Source: Chitinophaga pinensis (GTDB taxonomy: Bacteria; Bacteroidota; Bacteroidia; B-17B0; Aurantibacillaceae). From it: a stretch of DNA of 64,000 nucleotides. This document shows, piece by piece, positions 39,398 to 50,696 of this stretch. The notes beneath the pieces were generated by a model. It saw only the letters and a list, made by a program, of their open reading frames with translations, ran no database searches and was not told the origin of the DNA. The position numbers and the translations under genes are program-made. How positions within the stretch are numbered: the first letter of the stretch is position 1; every line of letters starts with the position of its first letter. The DNA lies in the NCBI GenBank assembly GCA_945860225.1, contig CAMAPT010000008.1:1-64000 (forward strand), in the 5' to 3' direction.

Positions 39398-39471
39398 GGT
39401 TGTGTAGCTCAACTGGATAGAGCATCTCACTACGGATGAGAAGGTTTGGGGTTCGAATCCCTACACGATCA
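39398..39471 (+). tRNA. tRNA-Arg (ACG)
   Basis: Cloverleaf seen directly: acceptor GGTTGTG / CACGATC (two G-U pairs), D arm TAGCTCAACTGGATAGAGCA, anticodon stem TCTCA/TGAGA with loop CTACGGA (anticodon ACG at 39432-39434), T loop TTCGAAT. No encoded CCA. Confidence 0.93.
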
Positions 39472-39475
39472 CAAA

Positions 39476-39511
39476 CAAAACCCTTTGACATAAAACAGAG
39501 GGTTTTGTTTT
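39476..39511 (+). terminator. Terminator-like hairpin between the two tRNAs
   Basis: CAAAACCC ... GGGTTTTG followed by TTTTT. It could end the tRNA-Arg transcript partly, or act in processing of a joint precursor. Confidence 0.5.
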
Positions 39512-39520
39512 TAATAACAT

Positions 39521-39594
39521 GGTGAGGTAGCTCAGTTGGTTAGAGCATCGGATTCATAACCCGAAGGTCAGGAGTTCAAATCTCCTTCTCACTA
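39521..39594 (+). tRNA. tRNA-Met (CAT), elongator type
   Basis: Acceptor GGTGAGG / TCTCACT, anticodon stem TCGGA/CCCGA with loop TTCATAA (anticodon CAT at 39555-39557), T loop TTCAAAT. The anticodon stem lacks the three G-C pairs of initiator tRNA, so elongator Met is favoured; a lysidine-modified Ile tRNA is less likely from the body sequence. Confidence 0.88.
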
Positions 39595-39597
39595 CAA

Positions 39598-39665: not shown

Positions 39666-41162
39666 CTATTTATTTAAAGCACTAAGTATTGTTCTAAAAC
39701 TTTCTAAGCCTGCTTCTAAATTTTCGACAATGTCTAGGGCTAACACATCAGGGTCGGGTAAATTGTCTAAATCGGCTAGAGATTTATCTTTTAACCAAGT
39801 TATGTCTAATGATGTTTTATCGCGAGCGATGATTTCTTCGTACGTAAATTTGCGCCAACGTCCTTCGGGGTTGGTTTCGGTGTTGTATGTTTCTTTACGT
39901 TTTTTTGGATTGCTTGGATTGTAAAGTTTAATAAAGTCGTTTAAATCATCCAATTTTAATGGATTCTTTTTTAAGGTATGGTGAACATTCGTTCTATAAT
40001 CATACACCCAAATATCTTTGGTTTGAACGGTTTTGCTACTTGGCTTGCCATCAAAAAATAACACGTTAGCTTTGACGCCATTGGCATAAAATATACCTGT
40101 TGGTAAACGTAAAATAGTATGTAGGTCGGTTGTTTCTAATAATTTTTTACGGACTGTTTCACCAACACCTCCTTCAAACAATACGTTATCGGGTAGCACC
40201 ACGGCTGCTTTGCCTGTTGTTTTTAACATGGTGCGAATGTGCTGCACAAAGTTTAATTGCTTGTTGCTCGTAGTTACCCAAAAATCGGTACGGTTATAGG
40301 TTAAGTCTTCTTTTTCTTGCTCGCCTTCTTCGTTGGTAAAGGTCATGCTGCTTTTTTTACCGAAAGGTGGATTGGCTAAAATATAATCGTAGCGGGTTCC
40401 CGAATCTGTTATCAAGGAATCGTTGGGAGAAATGAAATTATCGCTATCAATATCACCAATGTTATGTAAAAACAAATTCATCAGCGCTAAGCGGCGTGTA
40501 CTTGCTACAATTTCGTTACCAAAAAAGGTTTCATATTTTAAAAACTTCTTGGCTTCTTTATCTAAATCTTGGTTATCTACAATCCAATCATAAGCGGCTA
40601 AAAAGAAACCACCTGTACCACAAGCAGGGTCTGCTATCGTCTTCATAGGCTCTGGACGCAAACACTCCACCATGGCTTTAATTAAAGGACGTGGTGTAAA
40701 GTATTGCCCAGCACCACTTTTGGTATCTTCGGCATTTTTTTCTAAAAGGCCTTCGTAAATATCGCCTTTATCTTTTACACCCATTAATATCCAACTCTCG
40801 GCATTAATGAGGGCAATGAGTTTATACAATTTGGCAGGGTCTTGTATTTTATTTTGGCTCTTAGTAAAAATTTGCCCAAGAATGCCTTTTTCTTTGGCTA
40901 GCTCACGCAACATGGTATTATAATGCGTTTCTAACTCTGCACCGCTTTTGTTTATTAAACTCTCCCAACCATATTGTTTTGGGATTGGCATTTTGCGGTT
41001 ATGCGGTGGCTTGCTATATTCATCGGCCATTTTTAAAAATAGCAAATAGGTTAGCTGCTCTAAATAATCGCCGTAGCCAACGCCATCATCTCTTAAGGTT
41101 TGGCAAAATGCCCATACTTTACTAACGATGCTTGATGTGTTTGCGGTTGTGTCTTTGCTCAT
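39666..41162 (-). CDS. hsdM: Type I restriction-modification methyltransferase subunit
   Basis: A 498-residue N6-adenine DNA methyltransferase: N-terminal HsdM_N helices (SKVWAFCQTLRDDGVGYGDYLEQL), SAM motif DPACGTGGFFLAA, and catalytic NPPFGKK (N-P-P-F). It pairs with the HsdS specificity subunit encoded 1.7 kb upstream. Its start codon overlaps the stop of the DUF559 gene by 4 nt. It is last in the operon and faces a terminator next to tRNA-Met. No hsdR motor/nuclease gene is present in the window. Confidence 0.94.
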   Translation of the reverse strand: MSKDTTANTSSIVSKVWAFCQTLRDDGVGYGDYLEQLTYLLFLKMADEYSKPPHNRKMPIPKQYGWESLINKSGAELETHYNTMLRELAKEKGILGQIFTKSQNKIQDPAKLYKLIALINAESWILMGVKDKGDIYEGLLEKNAEDTKSGAGQYFTPRPLIKAMVECLRPEPMKTIADPACGTGGFFLAAYDWIVDNQDLDKEAKKFLKYETFFGNEIVASTRRLALMNLFLHNIGDIDSDNFISPNDSLITDSGTRYDYILANPPFGKKSSMTFTNEEGEQEKEDLTYNRTDFWVTTSNKQLNFVQHIRTMLKTTGKAAVVLPDNVLFEGGVGETVRKKLLETTDLHTILRLPTGIFYANGVKANVLFFDGKPSSKTVQTKDIWVYDYRTNVHHTLKKNPLKLDDLNDFIKLYNPSNPKKRKETYNTETNPEGRWRKFTYEEIIARDKTSLDITWLKDKSLADLDNLPDPDVLALDIVENLEAGLESFRTILSALNK

Positions 41163-41545
41163 AATTTGATTTTATTTTCTAAATAATTTTCAATGCGTTT
41201 TACAATGGTATCTGGTTCGGTAAACAATTCATCGTTTGTGCATCGTATAACCGTTATCCCTAATTCATTAATGATTTTTTCGCGTTGTATATCGCGTTGT
41301 TTTACTTCTTCTAAATCATGTATACTGCCATCAATCTCAATAACCAATAATGCTTCGTGACAATAAAAATCAGCAATAAAATAGTTTAATGGATGTTGCC
41401 TTCTAAATTTTAATCCTAAAATTTTACGGTTACGAGCCATTTGCCAAAACAAATCTTCGGCAGAGGTACTGTTTTTACGCAATAGTTTTGCATTTTTAAA
41501 TGTATTGGGTGTAGCACCGTGATAGTGAGGAATTTTACTGCGCAT
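41159..41545 (-). CDS. DUF559 (Vsr-like PD-(D/E)XK) endonuclease-domain protein
   Basis: A 128-residue protein of the DUF559 family, which has a very-short-patch-repair-like nuclease fold. Motifs: AEDLFWQMARNRKILGLKFRRQ, then FIADFYC and VIEIDGSIHD giving the D...ExD metal site, and RCTNDEL. The ATG at 41545 is chosen; the frame is open further, but that part derives from the adjoining repeat region. Its last codons overlap hsdM (ATGA), so the two are translationally coupled. It may be the nuclease of this locus (inference). Confidence 0.83.
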   Translation of the reverse strand: MRSKIPHYHGATPNTFKNAKLLRKNSTSAEDLFWQMARNRKILGLKFRRQHPLNYFIADFYCHEALLVIEIDGSIHDLEEVKQRDIQREKIINELGITVIRCTNDELFTEPDTIVKRIENYLENKIKL

Positions 41546-41620
41546 GGTTTTAAGGGTTGGATGCGTAGTTAGGTAAAGTGACCTTGCTGTGTTTAGTACT
41601 CTCACCTTTGTGTACAATGA

Positions 41621-41731
41621 CCTCACCCTTAATCCCTCTCCTCAAAGGAGAGGGAGACAGAACAGAAGGAGATAGAACAGGGTGTGCGGTTAGCACCCCC
41701 TTCTCCGAAGGGAGAAGGGCTGGGGATGAGG
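41621..41731. repeat. GC-rich palindromic element
   Basis: Two hairpins, CCCTCTCCT / AGGAGAGGG (41634-41654) and CCCTTCTCC / GGAGAAGGG (41698-41719), lie inside outer arms CCTCA (41621) and TGAGG (41727). The GC content is far above that of the surroundings. It resembles the short palindromic intergenic repeats often scattered in Bacteroidota genomes; it is probably a non-autonomous element. Confidence 0.7.
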
Positions 41732-41759
41732 GCATTACACCCCTACATACCCAACTCAC

Positions 41760-41843
41760 CACATCGCTAAATAAAGGTTGGCAAGATGCCCATACTTTAC
41801 TTACTATGCTTTGCATGTTTACTGGTATACGATTAATCATCAT
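41760..41843 (-). pseudogene. Duplicated 5' fragment of an hsdM-like gene
   Basis: The minus-strand translation SIVSKVWASCQPLFSDV matches the hsdM N terminus (SIVSKVWAFCQTLRDDG), and the DNA agrees at roughly three bases in four over about 50 nt. The match ends abruptly next to the palindromic element. It appears to be what remains of a second hsdM start, left by duplication or by insertion of the DUF559/repeat segment. Confidence 0.65.
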
Positions 41844-41864
41844 GTATCTTAGTTGAATTTTTAA

Positions 41865-42182
41865 TTACAAAGGCGCATCAATTAAATCAATTACAAAATC
41901 GCTGATTTCGTAATGAAACCATTGGTTAAATAATTTCCAATTACGGTTTTGTGGCCAATCGTTTTCATCTGTCCAAATGCCTTCTAATTCTAATTCGAAA
42001 ATTTGTTTGTAATGTTTCTTTATTAATTTTTGGGCATCTTCAAAATCTTCTTTTACCAAATAGGTTTTTGCTTCGCCTAACATATTTTCTTGCATTGGCA
42101 TATCAGGGCACAAGGCGTTATGCCATTGTATAAATGGTTGTTTGTGCAAAATGGTTATGGCGCTTCTGTTAATTAATTCCAT
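41865..42182 (-). CDS. Hypothetical protein in the modification operon
   Basis: A 105-residue acidic soluble protein with conserved-looking Trp and His positions (QWHNALCPD, EDFEDAQKLIKKHYKQIF, WKLFNQWFHYEISDFVIDLID). No known domain is recognised. It starts 5 nt after the zinc-finger gene stop, in one operon with hsdS upstream. Its place inside a modification locus suggests a regulatory or accessory role, but none can be assigned. Confidence 0.7.
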   Translation of the reverse strand: MELINRSAITILHKQPFIQWHNALCPDMPMQENMLGEAKTYLVKEDFEDAQKLIKKHYKQIFELELEGIWTDENDWPQNRNWKLFNQWFHYEISDFVIDLIDAPL

Positions 42183-42187
42183 ATTTT

Positions 42188-42853
42188 TTATTGATGTACA
42201 CCATCTCTTTGTTGATCAATATGACCGCCTGTATAACCACACACACCCATGCGAGGCGAATTTACAACTGGCATTTTTGCGTAATCTTGAAAATCAGCAC
42301 ATTCTTTGTCGTGTTGAGTTGAACAACTTTCGCAAAAGAAATCCCAATCACATACTGTACAAATATTTGCAGCTGGATGTTTTTCGCATTTAGCACAAAT
42401 TAATTTTAAGGGTTCGTTACGCGAAAGCAAAACAATATCCTCCTTAAGGTTGAGTTTATAATTTTTTATACCTTTTAAAAACACACGGGTTGTAGAGCCA
42501 TAATCGTAATCGTGGTAAATTTTAACTTTGGTTTCAAATACATCCATTACCATATGTGTGGTAGATACTTTAAAATCTTTGTGTCCAAAGCCACTCATGT
42601 GTCCGCAGCAGTCTAACCAAATATCTTTTAGAAAGGTATCTATTTTTTTCATGCTTGCTTTGCCTTTTACTAATAGTTGCAAAAACATAACGCCATCTTC
42701 AACCACAATATGACAATAGGTTTCTGGGCTTTTAGCGGCATCTTCTTTTTGCATTTGGGCTAAGTGTGCGGCCAAATGTTTAGTAATTTGTGCGTGTGGC
42801 ACTATTTGTGTGCAATACAAGCACTTTCCTTCTGATGTTAATTCGTGTTCCAT
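42188..42853 (-). CDS. Zinc-finger protein with a pRiA4b ORF-3-like middle region
   Basis: A 221-residue protein. N terminus: CLYCTQIVPHAQITKHLAAH, a C2H2-like finger. Middle (about 45-150): FLQLLVKG, IWLDCCGHMSGFG and YHDYDYGSTTRVF, resembling plasmid pRiA4b ORF-3-like proteins. C terminus: a Cys-rich B-box-like cluster (CAKCEKHPA, CTVCDWDFFCESC, then His and Cys). Such fingers suggest nucleic-acid or protein binding. It lies 12 nt after hsdS and 5 nt before the next gene, so it is part of the modification operon. Confidence 0.65.
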   Translation of the reverse strand: MEHELTSEGKCLYCTQIVPHAQITKHLAAHLAQMQKEDAAKSPETYCHIVVEDGVMFLQLLVKGKASMKKIDTFLKDIWLDCCGHMSGFGHKDFKVSTTHMVMDVFETKVKIYHDYDYGSTTRVFLKGIKNYKLNLKEDIVLLSRNEPLKLICAKCEKHPAANICTVCDWDFFCESCSTQHDKECADFQDYAKMPVVNSPRMGVCGYTGGHIDQQRDGVHQ

Positions 42854-42865
42854 TTTATTTAACTC

Positions 42866-44104
42866 TTAAACTAATTTCCCTTCAAAAGCCTTTTTTAAAA
42901 TACTTTGGCGCAAAGCCTCGGCTTGTTGTAGGCTTTGGTTTATACTTTTTTCCATTTTATCCGCTACACTTAAACGACTCTCGATTTCTTGAACAATTAA
43001 TTGTTGCTCTTCAAATGAACAATAAGGTAAATCATAATCTCTAATTAAGTCAGTATTTAAATTTGGTTGAGCTGCACCCATATTTATATTCCTTAATTCT
43101 CTAGTCTTACTAACCCAGAAATAATATAAATAATGATTACTTCTGATGTCCAAATCCAAAAATGCAGCTACACCGTCATTCATTGTTGCGTTTATCATAC
43201 AAATTTTTGGAACTCCTAATGTTGCACCACTATTTGATAACAATAATGTATTTGGAGCTATTTGTCTGGTTTTATGTAAACCAGCCTCTTTAATTGTATA
43301 AGTATATGTAGTTAAGTAGATTCCATCACCTTTTGTTAAATCAGCAACTTTAAGAAATGGAATATTGCCATTATAAAATTTAGGGTCACCAGCTGGACGT
43401 GGTGAACCACCTCTTACAACTTTAGATACATCAGCTATTTTTACCATTTTCCACCCCTTTGGTAACTCACCATCTTTTACTTTTTTGTTGGTTAGCTTTC
43501 CTTCAAAAGCCCATTTTAAAACAGATTGGCGGTAAGTTTTTAATTGTTGTTGGGCGGTTTTTAAATTGGCAATGCCATTATCTAACTCGCTAAATAGTTC
43601 TTCTATTTTTGAGACGATGGCTTGTTGGGTTGGCAGTGGGGGAAGAGGGAAAGTGAGTTCTGAAAAACTCTTCAAAGATATCTCCTTAAATGTTGTTCCA
43701 CTTGCAACTTGCTCTGCTCTTTGTTTGGAAGCTTTTAGATAGTAATAAATAAAATTACTATCTACATTTTCATATGGTATAATACTTTTAAATCCTTGAT
43801 TGGTACACAATTCATTATCTGCAATTACCACATAACCAATTGGAGCTCTGGAGGAAAATAAAACTGAGCCTTTTGGCATTAGCCTTGCCGAAGAATTCTT
43901 AAGACCTATTTCCGTAATTGATTTAGTACCCTTTTTTATTGTTTTGTTCTTGTATCCAGTTAAATCAGATGGGGAAATCCAACTAATGTCTCCATTCCAA
44001 TATTCATTTACTGCTGTTGAAGGTGTTCCACCGGAAATAATTTTACCTGCCTCACTTAACTTTACTTGCTTCCAACCTTTAGGTAATTTAATATTTGTAC
44101 TCAT
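42866..44104 (-). CDS. hsdS: Type I restriction-modification specificity subunit
   Basis: A 412-residue HsdS with the usual two halves. Each target recognition domain starts with a LPKGWK-type sequence (PKGWKQVKLSEAGKIISGGTP near residue 8; PKGWKMVKIADVSK near 218). Each is followed by a conserved helix (PPLPTQQAIVSKIEELFSEL; FEEQQLIVQEIESRLSV) and a KWAFEGKL/KKAFEGKL end. It should direct HsdM to a bipartite site. It lies downstream of a 12-bp tandem repeat and upstream of two accessory genes rather than next to hsdM. Confidence 0.93.
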   Translation of the reverse strand: MSTNIKLPKGWKQVKLSEAGKIISGGTPSTAVNEYWNGDISWISPSDLTGYKNKTIKKGTKSITEIGLKNSSARLMPKGSVLFSSRAPIGYVVIADNELCTNQGFKSIIPYENVDSNFIYYYLKASKQRAEQVASGTTFKEISLKSFSELTFPLPPLPTQQAIVSKIEELFSELDNGIANLKTAQQQLKTYRQSVLKWAFEGKLTNKKVKDGELPKGWKMVKIADVSKVVRGGSPRPAGDPKFYNGNIPFLKVADLTKGDGIYLTTYTYTIKEAGLHKTRQIAPNTLLLSNSGATLGVPKICMINATMNDGVAAFLDLDIRSNHYLYYFWVSKTRELRNINMGAAQPNLNTDLIRDYDLPYCSFEEQQLIVQEIESRLSVADKMEKSINQSLQQAEALRQSILKKAFEGKLV

Positions 44105-44129: not shown

Positions 44130-44255
44130 CCACCTATTCACCCACCTATTCACCCACCTGTTAGACCACCTGTTAGACCACCTATTAGACCACCTATTAG
44201 ACCACCTATTAGACCACCTGTTAGACCACCTGTTAGACCACCTGTTAGACCACCT
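44130..44255. repeat. 12-bp tandem repeat, about 10.5 copies
   Basis: Units CCACCTATTCAC (2), CCACCTGTTAGA (5) and CCACCTATTAGA (3), plus a 6-nt partial unit. On the minus strand the unit reads GTGG-TCTAACAG and carries an in-frame TAA for the upstream ATPase gene, whose stop lies in the first repeat. The array fills most of the spacer up to 25 nt before the hsdS ATG. Confidence 0.95.
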
Positions 44256-45141
44256 TAATTACTTCCCAATTGCCCCCAAATTTAGGTCCTATTCTTTTAA
44301 GCATTCCTTTTTGTTTCAGATTCTCAATTTGTTTTTGTACTGCTGATACATTTATTCCTAATTTTTCGGCCAATTCAGGTTTTGTGATTTTATTGTTATC
44401 GATGATTAAATTTAAAACTTCTTGTTGCCTATCTGTTAGTTTTGCACCAACTTTTGCACTACTTTTTGCATCATCTTTTGTTTGATTAATCTCGGCATTT
44501 TCTCTAAAAAAAGTTACTGCAAAAAAATCATTGAAATGAAATTCAGGCTCAGGTAATTTTGCTTCTTTTATTAAATCCTTTATACGGTTAACGCCTGTGC
44601 CTAATTTTTCAATTAAACCAGCTCTTAGCAGTAAGTCGGAAATAACAGGATTGCGAGATAAACTATATTTGCCAAAATCTTTTTCGGTTAAGCCTTCGGG
44701 TAAACCACCAGGATTAGAAATAATAACACGGTTGCTATAAATTTCAATCATAATGTGTGCGCCAGTTTCTAAATAATTACGATGCGCTACCGCATTCACC
44801 AAAGCTTCGCGTAAGGCTACCAAAGGTATTTCCAAAACATCTTCGCGCTTTAAGCCTTTAATGTGAGACGCCTCGTTTAAATGCCGTCTTAAAAAGGCCA
44901 GTCCCGAATCAATATTTGTAATTAAATCCTCTTTAAAATCTTTACGATCGAGTATATCCACTTTTTCAGTTCCATTAAACGCTACACAGGTAATTTGTGC
45001 TTGTTTAATAATAGATGAAGGGGTAGTTGTAAAAAAAAGAATACCGGCATTGGTAAAATAACGAGTACCAGCAACTTGTTTAACAACACCTAAACTGGAT
45101 AGAATATGAACTTTCCTTAGAAATAGATTTTTGATTATCAT
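44245..45141 (-). pseudogene. ATP-binding protein (AlbA_2/RecG-like family), N-terminally truncated
   Basis: A 298-residue frame with the HATPase_c_4-like core (REALVNAVAHRNYLETG, SNPGGLPEGLTEKDFGK, GLIEKLGTGVNRIKDLI) and a C-terminal winged helix (QQEVLNLIIDNNKITKPELAEKL). Intact relatives carry a Schlafen AlbA_2 domain of ~130 residues first. Here the frame opens at YFTNAGILFF-type sequence, and an in-frame TAA lies ~24 nt upstream of the ATG. It may still be expressed as a regulator in front of hsdS, but I read it as a remnant. Confidence 0.7.
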
Positions 45142-45580
45142 TAAACTAGCAGTCTTGTTTTATGGAGGATTTGAAGTGGCTCTCTAATGACTACATACTG
45201 CTATCAGAGATATACTTTGTTCTGAAAAAGAAATAATTTGACCTATTTTTTGACATTAATTAATTTATTTTTTACTTTGTGTAGAGTTTAACATTAAATC
45301 TAATTCGATAGGTGTAGATATAAGTATTAGACTTTTATTTGGTTAAACAAAAAATATCAACAAAATAAGAGTAGAAATACAATTTGAAATCTGAAAAAAT
45401 GGAAAAACAATGTATGTCGATAAAAATACAGATAGTACATTTTGATTCCAACTAAATAAAACGCAGAGGATTATTTAGAGGATTCGTCCAAACGGACACT
45501 TATAATCAAATGAATTCTATTAAAAACAAGTTTATAAGAATTACAAAAATAAAATACAAGAAATTTTTAAATAACCTAAA
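45142..45580. other. AT-rich intergenic region, no gene seen
   Basis: No supportable ORF, RNA or terminator. A stretch at about 45350-45410 (ATATCAACAAAATAAGAGTAG) is faintly like the dispersed repeat at 48241 and 49259. Confidence 0.4.
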
Positions 45581-46447
45581 ATGACAAATAAAAATTTAAA
45601 TATATCACTAATCATTATTATTTCTACGTTATTAATATCTAGTTGCAAAAATTCTGAGACAAATAAGGGTAATTCTGATGTTAATCAAATAAAACTTAAC
45701 TATAAAGAAGGTTATTATTTAACCAAGGAATACTTAAACTTTAACTTTAAAGATGAAGAAAGTCCAAATGCAATTGGGATAAATATTTCAAAATCTGATT
45801 CCATTTTTTCATTTGTAGATTTTAACTGCCAAGAATGTATGACTATGGGAGATAATTGGACAACTTCAAAATTATTAAGTGAAAGTGAATTTGGTTCTCT
45901 TTGGAGTGCATTGGAAATCAATAACAAATTTGCTTTAGTTGCTAAATTAAGGGGCGGTAAAAATGGCGATACTCTTTACTGGATTTCGAAGGAAAACTTC
46001 AAGATTTTAAATAACTGTCAATTTGATTTTATTGAAAAAGAATTAAATAAATATAAAACTTTACTATTTAATAAAATTGGCAAATTAGAATTTAATAACG
46101 GCAATTGTTTTCCTGTTGGTTGTTTTAGTAATGTTTCGTTTTCGATTGACTACGTTAACAATTTTGCCAAAGTATTTTATATGCTAGGAGATGAAGAATA
46201 TAAAGCTGAAGCTGAAATTTTTATTAACACTAAAGGGGAAGAAATGTTGTTATTAAAAAATATAATTAATATCAAGAATAACGCTCCAAAAGATAATAAA
46301 ATTGTTGTTGTTGAAAAGAATAAGGAATCATCAAAAAAAATAACTCTTTTCTTGTTAGATGAAGCATCAATTGAAAAAGTTGAAAATGAAAAGGATATTA
46401 ATTTTGACAACTATTCCGGTGCCTACTTTCAAAATTTTATCGAATAA
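45581..46447 (+). CDS. Hypothetical lipoprotein
   Basis: A 288-residue protein with a lipoprotein signal peptide (hydrophobic residues 8-20, lipobox LLISSC with Cys22) and a mature part of mixed beta/charged character. It has several Cys (FNCQECMTMG, NNCQFD, NCFPVGCF). I do not recognise the family. It is expected in the outer membrane or periplasm. Codons are very AT-rich, and it lies in an accessory island among other exported unknowns. Confidence 0.65.
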   Translation: MTNKNLNISLIIIISTLLISSCKNSETNKGNSDVNQIKLNYKEGYYLTKEYLNFNFKDEESPNAIGINISKSDSIFSFVDFNCQECMTMGDNWTTSKLLSESEFGSLWSALEINNKFALVAKLRGGKNGDTLYWISKENFKILNNCQFDFIEKELNKYKTLLFNKIGKLEFNNGNCFPVGCFSNVSFSIDYVNNFAKVFYMLGDEEYKAEAEIFINTKGEEMLLLKNIINIKNNAPKDNKIVVVEKNKESSKKITLFLLDEASIEKVENEKDINFDNYSGAYFQNFIE

Positions 46448-47272
46448 TAAAACGATAAGATATACATCTTAAGTGTTTAAATAAACATCTTATACATTTA
46501 ACCTTTATTTTGATCACAGTTTTTTCATCTAGTCAAAATAAAGTTTTATACAATTAACAGGTTCAAAGCTGATATATAACCAGTTGGCGTTTTTTATTAT
46601 AAGTATTCAAAAAAATTACAAGTATGTTAAAAAAATAAATTCATCAAAAAATACAATAATTCATTTAACGAACATAAAATTTTACAAACTAGAAAGAATA
46701 GGTAAAAGTGGTTAATACTTATTATTATTATTCATAATTTGAAATGTAACAAATAATTACTCATGGCAAACAATTAGTTGCCAAAGTTCATATGGAATAA
46801 AAAATTCTCCATGTTAAAAATTAATTAAAACCTCAAAATAAAGTGATGAGATTCTTTTAGTTGTGCTTTATATAATAAATTTCAATTACTGGTTTGCAAT
46901 ATTTTTCCTAAGAGAAAGTTAATTAGTTTTCATACAGATGATTCTATAATTTTTATTGATACAATGACCAAATGACAAGTAAATCCTAAATATCAGTACT
47001 TCTGAGTTTAATTCCCACATGTATAGTAATTTACAGAATATATTTTCTGATTTTTATCGATAAAAAAAGCTAAGTTATTTTTCCATTAAAGCCTAAATGA
47101 AAGATTATTAATAACCTAGATATGGCATTTATTTAATTGTATGATACCTTTAAGGAATATTATTTTCAAATTTATATAAATGGAAAAGTAGTGAAAAATA
47201 GATAAATAAATACATTTGTATACTATTTTTGAATTGATTTTAATTTTTTAAACTAATTTTAAACAAAAAACT
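46448..47272. other. Long AT-rich gap, no gene seen
   Basis: About 825 nt without a supportable gene on either strand; stop codons are dense in all frames. It may be decayed DNA. Confidence 0.4.
47224..47231 (+). promoter_or_regulatory. -7 promoter element of the MORN-like secreted protein gene
   Basis: TATTTTTG (TAnnTTTG), 41 nt before the ATG at 47273. No convincing upstream TTTG at the right distance. Confidence 0.45.
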
Positions 47273-48145
47273 ATGACCAAAATTAAATTTATTTTTATTG
47301 TGTTAATAATTTCATTTTCAATAAGTAAAGTCAAAAGTCACAGCCAATTTACAATTGAAGAAAAAAATAATTATTTAAATGGGCGCGCTGTATGTTTTTT
47401 TTCGCAAACTACAAATAAAAATGATGAAAATTCCCAGTATTACAGCATTTTAGATAAATGTGTAAAAGAATGTAACGGTATGTTAGTGTCAATCAAAAAT
47501 GTACATCAATTATCCGCCTCTTTTACCAGTCGTGGTTATGCTGCTTTAACGGATGAAAAAATACATAGTGAAGCAGATATGCAGCTTCATAAAGTAGTGA
47601 ATATAAAATGGGATCATGTTGTAAATCTTAAAATCAGTACGTTAACATTTCAATATTCTTGTATTTGTATTGAATTCGCAGAAGGCTTCTCCCCCACTGT
47701 TTTTTGGAATAGAACAACAAACTATAGTATAAAAAGTATTCAAGACCCAATGGATATTGATCCGAAAGATTTACCATATGATAACTATTTTAATGATAAA
47801 AAAAAAGGTCGATTTAGTATTGTTGTAAAAAAAGAACAAGCAAATAAATGTATAGAAGCAATAAACCATCTAATTTCTAATTCGAAAGAAAAAAATTCAA
47901 ACCTAACTACTGAACTAACAAGAAATGAAAAATGGTCTGGTGAATATTTAGAAATTTGGCACACCGACTCGACGGGGATAAAACAAGGTAGATACGAAAT
48001 GAGAGACATAACTGGCAAACTAATAAGTTATGGTGACTATAAGGATAACGTAAAGGTAGGTAAATGGTTAATAAACGGTATAACAAATATATATGGTGGA
48101 ATAGGCAACCAATGTTCTTGTTCAGGGTATCATGAAGTCTATTAA
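47273..48145 (+). CDS. Secreted hypothetical protein with a MORN-like tail
   Basis: A 290-residue protein with a signal peptide (about 1-20) and a first ~220 residues that I do not recognise. A C-terminal segment reads GRYEMRDITGKLISYGDYK and then VGKWLINGI, like one MORN/YwqK-type repeat. Such repeats occur in surface proteins and some toxin-related proteins. The function is unknown. It lies alone in the accessory island. Confidence 0.6.
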   Translation: MTKIKFIFIVLIISFSISKVKSHSQFTIEEKNNYLNGRAVCFFSQTTNKNDENSQYYSILDKCVKECNGMLVSIKNVHQLSASFTSRGYAALTDEKIHSEADMQLHKVVNIKWDHVVNLKISTLTFQYSCICIEFAEGFSPTVFWNRTTNYSIKSIQDPMDIDPKDLPYDNYFNDKKKGRFSIVVKKEQANKCIEAINHLISNSKEKNSNLTTELTRNEKWSGEYLEIWHTDSTGIKQGRYEMRDITGKLISYGDYKDNVKVGKWLINGITNIYGGIGNQCSCSGYHEVY

Positions 48146-48240
48146 CTTTTTTAGAATAAAAAAATTAGAATTGTGTTTTATATGTTCTAAATCCAAAATA
48201 TTGGTTTTTTGGTTAATGTTAAGATATTTATCCGCTCCCG

Positions 48241-48330
48241 AAGATTTGTAATTCGTGCGCTAAAATACACTAAATCAAAAGTTAAGTAGATAAGAAAATA
48301 AAATGTCAACAAAATATAAAGCTAGAAGCA
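48241..48330. repeat. Dispersed repeat C, copy 1
   Basis: GATTTGTAATTCGTGCGCTAA followed by AAATCAAAAGTTAAGTAGAT and AATGTCAACAAAATATAAAG matches 49261-49342 over about 85 nt with few changes. It lies between two unknown exported-protein genes. Confidence 0.7.
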
Positions 48331-48420
48331 AATTTTAATGAAAATTTCAATCCGAATTTTTGGTCTGAGGGTACGAAAGCAATTTTATATAATTAAAAAT
48401 AAAAATTAAGAATTGGTTAT

Positions 48421-49095
48421 ATGAAATGGATAATACAAAAAAAATGTATCGAACGTATTGCAAATACGCCCTATTTAGTTTACATAGGTGACAAAAAAAC
48501 AGTAAAACTTAACAAAATTAGAACGTTTAATTTAATTAACTTTCTTTTTGTATCAATATTTTTTTTAGCTTGTTCAGACAAAGATATTACTAACCAAATT
48601 GTTGATAATGAAAACAATGTTAATTATAATGATGCAACTAAGAATTCCCAAGGGCAGCAATTTGCAGAAAATACAAAATTAAACTTATGTGATTTATCTC
48701 CCGATCAAATGTTGGACTACTTGACAACAAAACACTTTACGTTAAATGGAAATGGAGGCGTTTCTTTTCTTAAAAAGGGTGATATAAAAATTAAGCATAG
48801 AGGGAAGGGATACAAGGGTAAGTATGAAATAATGACAAATAATAGTATAAGAATCTATAATTTACTGATAATATCTGGAAATTACAACTCTTCAAATAAT
48901 GATCCATATCCAGATTTGGAGCAGCGTGTCAACGAATACTACCGAGAGGATTACAAGAATAGCACTTCAAATAATCCTCCTTTACAAGGCGTTTTTAATA
49001 TGGACTGTGATGGAATGTTAAGTGGATGTTTAAGAAGCGCTGGAGGTCGAAATAACAACACGTTGAGAATTATGCCAAATGGTTCCTCCCAATAA
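48421..49095 (+). CDS. Hypothetical lipoprotein
   Basis: A 224-residue frame with a lipobox (NFLFVSIFFLACSDKD). The ~50 residues before the Cys are long for a signal peptide, but no ATG lies closer, so the true start may be a non-ATG codon or the N terminus may be disturbed. The mature region has GNGGVSFLKKGDIKIKHRGKG and a Tyr-rich middle. No family is recognised. AT-rich, in the accessory island. Confidence 0.55.
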   Translation: MKWIIQKKCIERIANTPYLVYIGDKKTVKLNKIRTFNLINFLFVSIFFLACSDKDITNQIVDNENNVNYNDATKNSQGQQFAENTKLNLCDLSPDQMLDYLTTKHFTLNGNGGVSFLKKGDIKIKHRGKGYKGKYEIMTNNSIRIYNLLIISGNYNSSNNDPYPDLEQRVNEYYREDYKNSTSNNPPLQGVFNMDCDGMLSGCLRSAGGRNNNTLRIMPNGSSQ

Positions 49096-49258
49096 AAATT
49101 TTTAGGGAATGAGAGTAATTCAGTAGATTAACAATGGAATAATTTTATAAAAGATTTTAAGTTTACTATAATTAATATGGATATTGGAAAATTAAAAAGT
49201 TTAAATGACTAAAAAAAAAATTTGATGGTGGAAATATAGCTGCATTACCTTGCTAAAG

Positions 49259-49342
49259 CGGATTTGCAATCCGTGGGCTAACATAAACTAAATGAATATT
49301 TAAGTATATGAGAAAATAATATGTCAACAAATATAAAGCAAG
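49259..49342. repeat. Dispersed repeat C, copy 2
   Basis: Starts with the perfect hairpin CGGATT-TGC-AATCCG (49259-49273) and then runs parallel to 48241-48330 (ATGTCAACAAATATAAAGC at the end). It lies just before the IS1380 relic. Confidence 0.7.
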
Positions 49343-49402
49343 CATACCATATATCTTATTTCGTAACAATTACCTGTGTTTATTGGGTTGATTTAACCAA
49401 GA

Positions 49403-50325
49403 TTATGCAATAGAAAAAACATGAGTTACTGATTTTTTAGTTACTATATCGAAGAAAGTATCTACCGATCTTCTTTTTTCTACAGTACCACTGATTTTCA
49501 GAGTTTTTATTCGAGCATGTTTTGTAACCCAAGTTACTAATGCAAAGCATTTAAATCTTAAAGTACTTAAATTGTCTTGGAACTTGTTCTTCAAGACAAC
49601 CTGACGAAAAAATGCCATTAGGTTACAAGCCATTAAAATGCTTCTAAAGACAGTCTATGTCCCAAAAAAATTATTTGCATGAAAGGTTTCTAAAGCAAAA
49701 TCATATTTTAGTTTGTTAATGTTGTTTCTAACCGCAACCATTCGTCGAAGTTTTTTCCAATTAGGCGATTGATAAAAAAATTCACACATCTCTGTTCCAT
49801 CTTTGATACTTATCCAGTTGCTTAAATGCCGAACTTCTTTTTTGATCGTTGGGTGAAATTTTTCAGCAGTTACTTAGTTGAGTTTTTTGTTTCTAATTCA
49901 CTCAAAAAATCATTACTATAAAAGCCACTATGGCAACTAACCAATCCTACTTTTTTGTTACTTAATAATTCCAATGTTTCTGCTAAAAATAATTTCGGAC
50001 TAATTGCTGCTCAATTATTTCTTTGACGCATCCACGCATTAACTATAGTCATAAATTCAATTAAAGGATGATGAGAATTGCGATCAAGTTTCTTTGGACT
50101 GTATGCTTTTTTTACTCCATGTTGTTCTCCATAACGAGTAACAACCGTGCTATCTAAATCTAAGGATACATTGTCAAATTGAATTCGATTTAAAAACCTA
50201 GGAAATAATGGAACAAAGGTATCTGTGTTTCTTTTCCAATCAAATTTATTAAAGAACTCATTATACGTGCTTCGCGCCGGCGCTTCCTTCCAATCAAATA
50301 TTTGCTTCAGGGTTTTGGTTTAGCA
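49403..50325 (-). pseudogene. Degenerate IS1380-family transposase
   Basis: The minus strand encodes a recognisable DDE transposase of the IS1380 type, broken by stops and frameshifts. In order: a segment with TLKQIFDWKEAPARS, LDLDSTVVTRYGEQHGVKKA with a catalytic Asp, KLDRNSHHPLIEFM, LVSCHSGFYSNDF, and a C-terminal LMAFFRQVVLKNKF-type end (49403-49633). The N-terminal ~100 residues are missing. It is a relic, not active. Terminal inverted repeats were not found. Confidence 0.8.
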
Positions 50326-50582
50326 TGAATTTAAATTAAAATAAGGTTAAATATAAAATGTAAAAAAATAGTACAAAAAACGAGTTCATTCATCCACTTA
50401 ATAAATAAAAATAACCGCTAATTTTTTATCGAGTTAATTTTGTCGCCAAACATACCTAAACTTGCCTACCGAAAAATACAAAAAAGTATGACTTTTTTCA
50501 ATTGGATTTCATTTCGGAACAATAATTAATGATTCATCTTTCAAAGCAATCCTCAAATCTTAATAAGATCACAAAAACAAAA

Positions 50583-50609: not shown

Positions 50610-50623
50610 TCTGTTTTTAAAAG

Positions 50624-50696
50624 TGGTACCTCCAGGAATCGAACCAGGGACACACAGATTTTCAGTCTGTTGCTCTACCGACTGAGCTAAGGTACC
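50624..50696 (-). tRNA. tRNA-Phe (GAA)
   Basis: Acceptor GGTACCT / AGGTACC (perfect), D arm TAGCTCAGTCGGTAGAGCA, anticodon stem ACAGA/TCTGT with loop CTGAAAA (anticodon GAA, complement of 50661-50663), T loop TTCGATT. No encoded CCA. Confidence 0.95.

Follow-up and report, generated by a model that had tools for sequence, protein, structure and literature searches.

Deletion of hsdR from an rlo/mlo-type type I locus with probable passenger genes, among them a hairpin-associated DUF559 nuclease gene

Genes and relics of the hsd locus

The window analysed here is a stretch of 64,000 nucleotides (nt) from Chitinophaga pinensis (GenBank assembly GCA_945860225.1, contig CAMAPT010000008.1, positions 1 to 64,000), which carries a type I hsd locus on its minus strand between flanking tRNA genes. 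In the direction of transcription, the order is a fragment of albA, hsdS, a gene of 221 amino acids (aa), a gene of 105 aa, a DUF559 nuclease gene and hsdM. Of the components of a complete type I system, HsdM and HsdS are present and the HsdR motor and nuclease is not. For comparison, we searched 87 genomes of the same bacterial family and scanned GTDB contigs, and obtained about 87 loci that contain this hsdM at 69-96% identity. Two entries with an identical locus layout, L066 and G031, are apparently one contig, and counts are of distinct loci where so stated. The features of the window locus, some of them defined by comparison with the relative G022, are as follows.

39398-39595, tRNA genes for Arg and Met; 50623-50696, tRNA gene for Phe (flanking tRNAs)
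39666-41162, minus strand, hsdM: 498 aa, type I N6-adenine methyltransferase subunit with intact motifs ADPACGTGGF and NPPFG
41159-41626, minus strand, DUF559 open reading frame (ORF): PD-(D/E)XK, Vsr-like, 155 aa counted from a GTG
41621-41732, minus strand, hairpin-repeat pair directly upstream of DUF559: CCCTCATCCCCAGCCCTTCTCC..GGAGAAGGG and CCCTCTCC..GGAGAGGGATTAAGGGTGAGG
41743-41824, minus strand, degenerate hsdM 5' end: remnant of a previous start of the gene, covering roughly codons 6-31
41865-42182, minus strand, 105-aa passenger gene (g105): homologues directly 5' of hsdM in loci L076, L078, L084 and L104
42188-42853, minus strand, Cys/His-rich passenger gene (zf221): 221 aa, zinc-binding-like, homologues in L090 and L101
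42866-44104, minus strand, hsdS: 412 aa, full-length specificity subunit with two target-recognition domains
44130-44255, unstranded, 12-bp tandem repeat: 10.5 copies between the albA fragment and hsdS
44245-45141, minus strand, C-terminal fragment of albA: 298 aa, AlbA_2/HATPase_c_4/wHTH (COG2865-like) passenger, 453 aa in G022
45137-49390, unstranded, unrelated DNA where the albA N-terminus and the bulk of hsdR once lay
45581-46447, 47273-48145 and 48421-49095, plus strand, three ORFs in the unrelated DNA
49391-50310, minus strand, decayed IS1380-like transposase: DDE_Tnp_1_4, 5' end missing
50306-50326, minus strand, hsdR start relic ATGCTAAACCAAAACCCTGAA: exact match to codons 1-7 of G022 hsdR

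A first-pass annotation of this DNA, made from the letters alone, had described hsdS and hsdM as separated by a zinc-finger gene, a 105-residue gene and a DUF559 gene whose stop overlaps the hsdM start by 4 nt, and had found no hsdR between the tRNAs. The ORFs do lie in these places on the minus strand, ATGA is common to the DUF559 stop and the hsdM start, and nothing of hsdR lies between the tRNAs beyond the 21-nt start relic. Its family calls agree with Pfam (N6_Mtase at 3.5e-68 together with HsdM_N; DUF559 at 1.6e-30; Methylase_S at 3.9e-53). To this description we add four elements: the albA fragment, the hsdM 5' relic, the hairpin pair and the hsdR start relic.

Membership of the nuclease in DUF559 (PF04480) is clear, at 105.6 bits against a curated cut-off of 20.6 and with the conserved D...ExD core, and an ATG at 41545 is a likelier start than the GTG. 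The two other genes between hsdS and hsdM are harder to place. A Pfam search gave only a weak B-box match for zf221, and its predicted structure was poor (mean predicted local distance difference test, pLDDT, 35.5) and was not used; g105 matched no Pfam family, and its fair predicted structure (pLDDT 80.2) had no match in the PDB with E < 1. PADLOC returned no match for either gene and weak matches only for DUF559. The methylation-associated defence system MADS was considered and rejected, with scores below the curated cut-offs (96.6 against 720 bits for MAD2, 35.2 against 400 bits for MAD5). No Pfam family was assigned to the three plus-strand ORFs.

Loss of hsdR

The absence of hsdR is the result of a deletion that left relics, and not an alternative design. 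The start relic matches over 21 nt exactly, with none expected by chance, and is collinear and on the correct strand. It joins the decayed IS1380-like transposase, of which G022 has an intact copy (77% identical DNA), and the bases CAAATA are shared by relic and transposase remnant. Next come about 4.3 kb of unrelated DNA and then albA, which resembles its 453-aa counterpart in G022 at the DNA level only from codon 161 onwards (window position 45136). We infer that a transposon insertion was followed by deletion: insertion of the IS1380-like element and the subsequent loss would have removed hsdR except for its first 21 nt, and with it the initial third of albA, the gene that follows. Since most of hsdR has been removed, restriction in the usual manner is impossible for this system.

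No other hsdR of the same family was found on any contig of the genome, which is 99.97% complete; the best remaining match, at about 27-33% identity, is the HsdR of a second, separate system on contig C5. That the gap is an artefact of assembly is hardly credible. The genome is a draft in 47 contigs, which leaves such an error conceivable, but the window contains no Ns, the junction pairs a decayed insertion sequence with an hsdR relic, and no hsdR of this family lies on any contig.

Where enough sequence is available, the related loci follow a common plan of hsdR (about 940 aa), variable genes, hsdS, variable genes and hsdM, with hsdR matches 5' of hsdS in 65 distinct loci. Two loci that seem to lack the gene, L061 and L101, have an hsdR of the same family elsewhere in the genome, that of L061 just upstream in the same stretch, and most of the remaining loci without hsdR end at contig edges. 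In L076, from a Brocadia metagenome-assembled genome, only hsdR codons 1-74/80 are left, with an in-frame stop and a 3' fragment of hsdS; this is a second, independent loss of hsdR.

What remains in the window probably still methylates, to judge from its genes. HsdM has kept its S-adenosylmethionine and NPPF motifs, and it is under purifying selection: its unique codon changes relative to three relatives number 4 nonsynonymous and 32 synonymous, a constraint no laxer than in relatives that carry hsdR. An HsdM2-HsdS complex would then methylate a bipartite motif as a probable orphan N6-methyladenine (m6A) methyltransferase. Among the suggestions of the first-pass annotation was a modification-only or epigenetic system; the loss of the cognate hsdR from locus and genome and the preserved HsdM motifs make this plausible, while methylation itself is deduced from genes. 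The hsdR-less methyltransferase locus is a ruin and not a new design for restriction, and it cautions against taking a missing subunit together with an odd nuclease for a new system.

Passenger genes and gene-end relics

Both variable slots of the common plan are occupied in the window, by the albA fragment 5' of hsdS and by zf221, g105 and DUF559 between hsdS and hsdM, an arrangement of the rlo/mlo type. R-linked (rlo) and M-linked (mlo) ORFs have been described in type I hsd loci of Campylobacter jejuni (Miller et al. 2005, cited in PMC5183652). The likeness extends to the order hsdR, ORFs, hsdS, ORFs, hsdM, to the variability of the passengers and to an RloB-family protein in loci related to that of the window. 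In contrast to the Campylobacter loci, the window locus has had its hsdR deleted, carries DUF559, zinc-finger and 105-aa passengers, and has gene-end relics that mark insertions. The passengers are diverse: the related loci contain 122 non-core clusters among 232 ORFs, with families that include AAA_21/AAA_15, SLFN_AlbA_2, Fic, RhuM, DUF4062, GmrSD, McrBC, AbiC and RloB, many of them defence-like. Accessory genes of a defence-like kind are also found within the type I operon EcoprrI, where PrrC is an embedded passenger (PMC12707154); the window, however, has no PrrC, and there is no sign that its passengers sense restriction.

Fragments of the core genes lie among these passengers. The hsdM 5' relic of the window has a 24-nt core, with none expected by chance. 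In G022, the order is hsdS, DUF559, an hsdM relic of 23-26 codons, Fic and hsdM, and in L072 there is a clean hsdM 5' relic of about 22 codons. At the other end of the plan, hsdR 3' ends complete with stop codon lie behind a Fic-like gene in L124 and L131 (Fic by cargo-cluster similarity) and behind a PIN-like gene in L130; L092 has another hsdR 3' end relic, and in L118 an hsdM 3' end lies downstream of hsdM. When hsdR and hsdM were tiled over all intervals to detect such remains, no internal tile gave a match at E < 1e-3 in any of them, and the relics come from gene ends only.

Because a homologue of the 105-aa gene immediately precedes hsdM in four other loci, the window relic marks a former hsdM start. 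The ancestral order would thus have been hsdS, zinc finger, 105 aa, hsdM, and a later event would have placed a block of hairpin repeat, DUF559 and fresh hsdM start ahead of hsdM, the old 5' end staying behind as a relic. We suggest that passengers accrete by recombination that is anchored on one side in a conserved core gene and joined illegitimately on the other, through homology-facilitated illegitimate recombination (HFIR) or an equivalent process; recombination at core-gene ends appears to be the simplest account of their entry. HFIR has been proposed as the origin of effector/immunity arrays of the type VI secretion system (PMC5361080), in which a conserved core gene likewise anchors recombination and displaced gene ends and modules are left behind. 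The hsd loci differ in their anchors, which are the 3' end of hsdR and both ends of hsdM, and in their modules, which are passengers of a defence-like kind. The relics are a readable record of passenger entry into type I loci, against which ideas on the origin of rlo/mlo-type gene swapping can be tested.

The DUF559 gene and its hairpin repeat

Together with the relic pattern, the most interesting part of the locus is its hairpin-associated, mobile-looking DUF559. A search with the pattern CCTCAYCCC..CYTCTCC finds exactly two matches in the window, both just upstream of DUF559, and the same pair lies upstream of the gene in G022. Across 26 DUF559 loci of the family, the hairpin has a density of 0.97/kb at distances of up to 300 bp from the domain and of 0.03/kb beyond that, with no occurrence in 205 kb of control loci; by this pattern, 14 of the 26 sampled loci have it. 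Many genomes of the family carry DUF559 in frame within housekeeping genes, with one hairpin on each side (host genes were named from their translated flanks). The editing region of leuS holds DUF559 in 15 genomes (L188-L202), while in others (L203-L217) this place is empty or taken by different short repeats, and a second leuS site is filled in G011, G020, G035, G077 and G082. The metH gene of the window's own genome (L052, contig C3 at about 69982-74258; also L168) contains a hairpin-bordered DUF559 at residues ~770-923. The metH genes of all 19 genus relatives match over the insert site in two segments that adjoin directly, and the uninterrupted site is visible in the sequences of seven of them. 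DUF559 is also in frame in hutU, and several stand-alone relatives have in-frame stops.

This patchy distribution of filled and empty sites suggests that DUF559 is mobile. It is tempting to regard it as a hairpin-bordered mobile nuclease whose in-frame insertions, apparently not spliced out, go into genes that are essential or conserved (leuS and metH at two sites each, and hutU), the hsd copy being a stand-alone hitch-hiker on type I loci in which passengers accrete at core-gene ends and leave relics of 65-200 bp; we would place the chance that this whole picture is right a little short of even. As mobile elements, such hairpin-bounded DUF559 copies, in frame within metabolic genes and a tRNA-synthetase gene, would be unusual. 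A literature search, within the collection of papers available, found no report of in-frame DUF559 insertions or of insertions in leuS, which is not proof of novelty.

How do these observations bear on the role of DUF559 beside hsdM? The first-pass annotation had proposed that the coupled nuclease could cut in place of HsdR, so that a small enzyme guided by HsdM and HsdS would cleave unmethylated DNA. The overlapping ORFs and the conserved D...ExD core invite this idea, as do the same 4-nt DUF559-hsdM junction in two genera, that of the window and that of G022, and a low dN/dS ratio of nonsynonymous to synonymous substitution rates between the two copies (about 0.07; dN 0.030, dS 0.44), which points to purifying selection. 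The related loci do not bear it out: DUF559 occurs in only 3 of the ~87 loci, and the other two both have a full hsdR. In G022, an 84% identical protein is encoded between hsdS and hsdM and its gene now precedes the hsdM relic and Fic, not hsdM; in L125, a 36% identical one is encoded between hsdR and hsdS. The overlap is not peculiar to DUF559 either, as an unrelated 227-aa gene in L043 also overlaps hsdM by 4 nt, and the window itself holds clear hsdR relics. A substitute cutter is therefore very improbable, and the locus survey rules out an obligate partnership of DUF559 with hsdM. Nor is a role as Vsr-like repair partner or guardian of the methyltransferase likely. Its precedents are VsrA, a DUF559 endonuclease of Caulobacter functionally tied to the unlinked solitary 5-methylcytosine (5mC) methyltransferase ScmA (PMC12907096), and PrrC in EcoprrI. 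The window protein shares with VsrA the DUF559 PD-(D/E)XK family, but its gene lies next to a hairpin repeat and to an hsdM of the m6A type; HsdM belongs to an adenine methyltransferase family, so that no mismatch from 5mC deamination is expected, and DUF559 is rare in these loci. 

A further account, to which we give substantial but clearly less than even weight, is that DUF559 is a selfish, homing-like nuclease gene that arrived by its own mobility and whose position in the hsd locus has no meaning for modification. The in-frame copies, the intact metH of the genus relatives, the enrichment of hairpins near the domain and the broken stand-alone relatives all favour it. Against it, the hsd copy in the window and in G022 stands alone with both hairpins upstream, unlike the flanking pairs in leuS and metH, the hairpin is absent from nearly half of the sampled loci, and movement is read from the pattern. 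It is compatible with the interpretation that we hold with considerable confidence, namely an rlo/mlo-type type I locus whose hsdR has been deleted, leaving a probable orphan m6A methyltransferase, and in which DUF559 and its neighbours are interchangeable passengers. The DUF559, zinc-finger and 105-aa genes are probably mobile as well, and probably no substitute for motor or cutter. Some points weigh against parts of this interpretation: the selection on hsdM may mostly predate the loss of hsdR, a functional link is still conceivable in view of the junction kept in two genera and the constraint on DUF559, only 8 of the ~87 loci bear relics, and the product of HFIR would look no different had a circular cassette integrated via short core-gene ends or had some other route been taken.

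Other short repeats were also seen. In L206 and L209, a different palindromic-repeat peptide, RHPELVSGSQEMLKQVQHD, lies in frame at the leuS site that elsewhere holds DUF559, and the hsdR of G022 (L042, 319-3141) contains a peptide, VPSPEGEGKGEGKT, that looks like an in-frame insertion of a short repeat into the coding sequence. The 12-bp repeat array between albA and hsdS is also present in G022 (L042, 4492-4601), and its copy number could influence hsdS expression.

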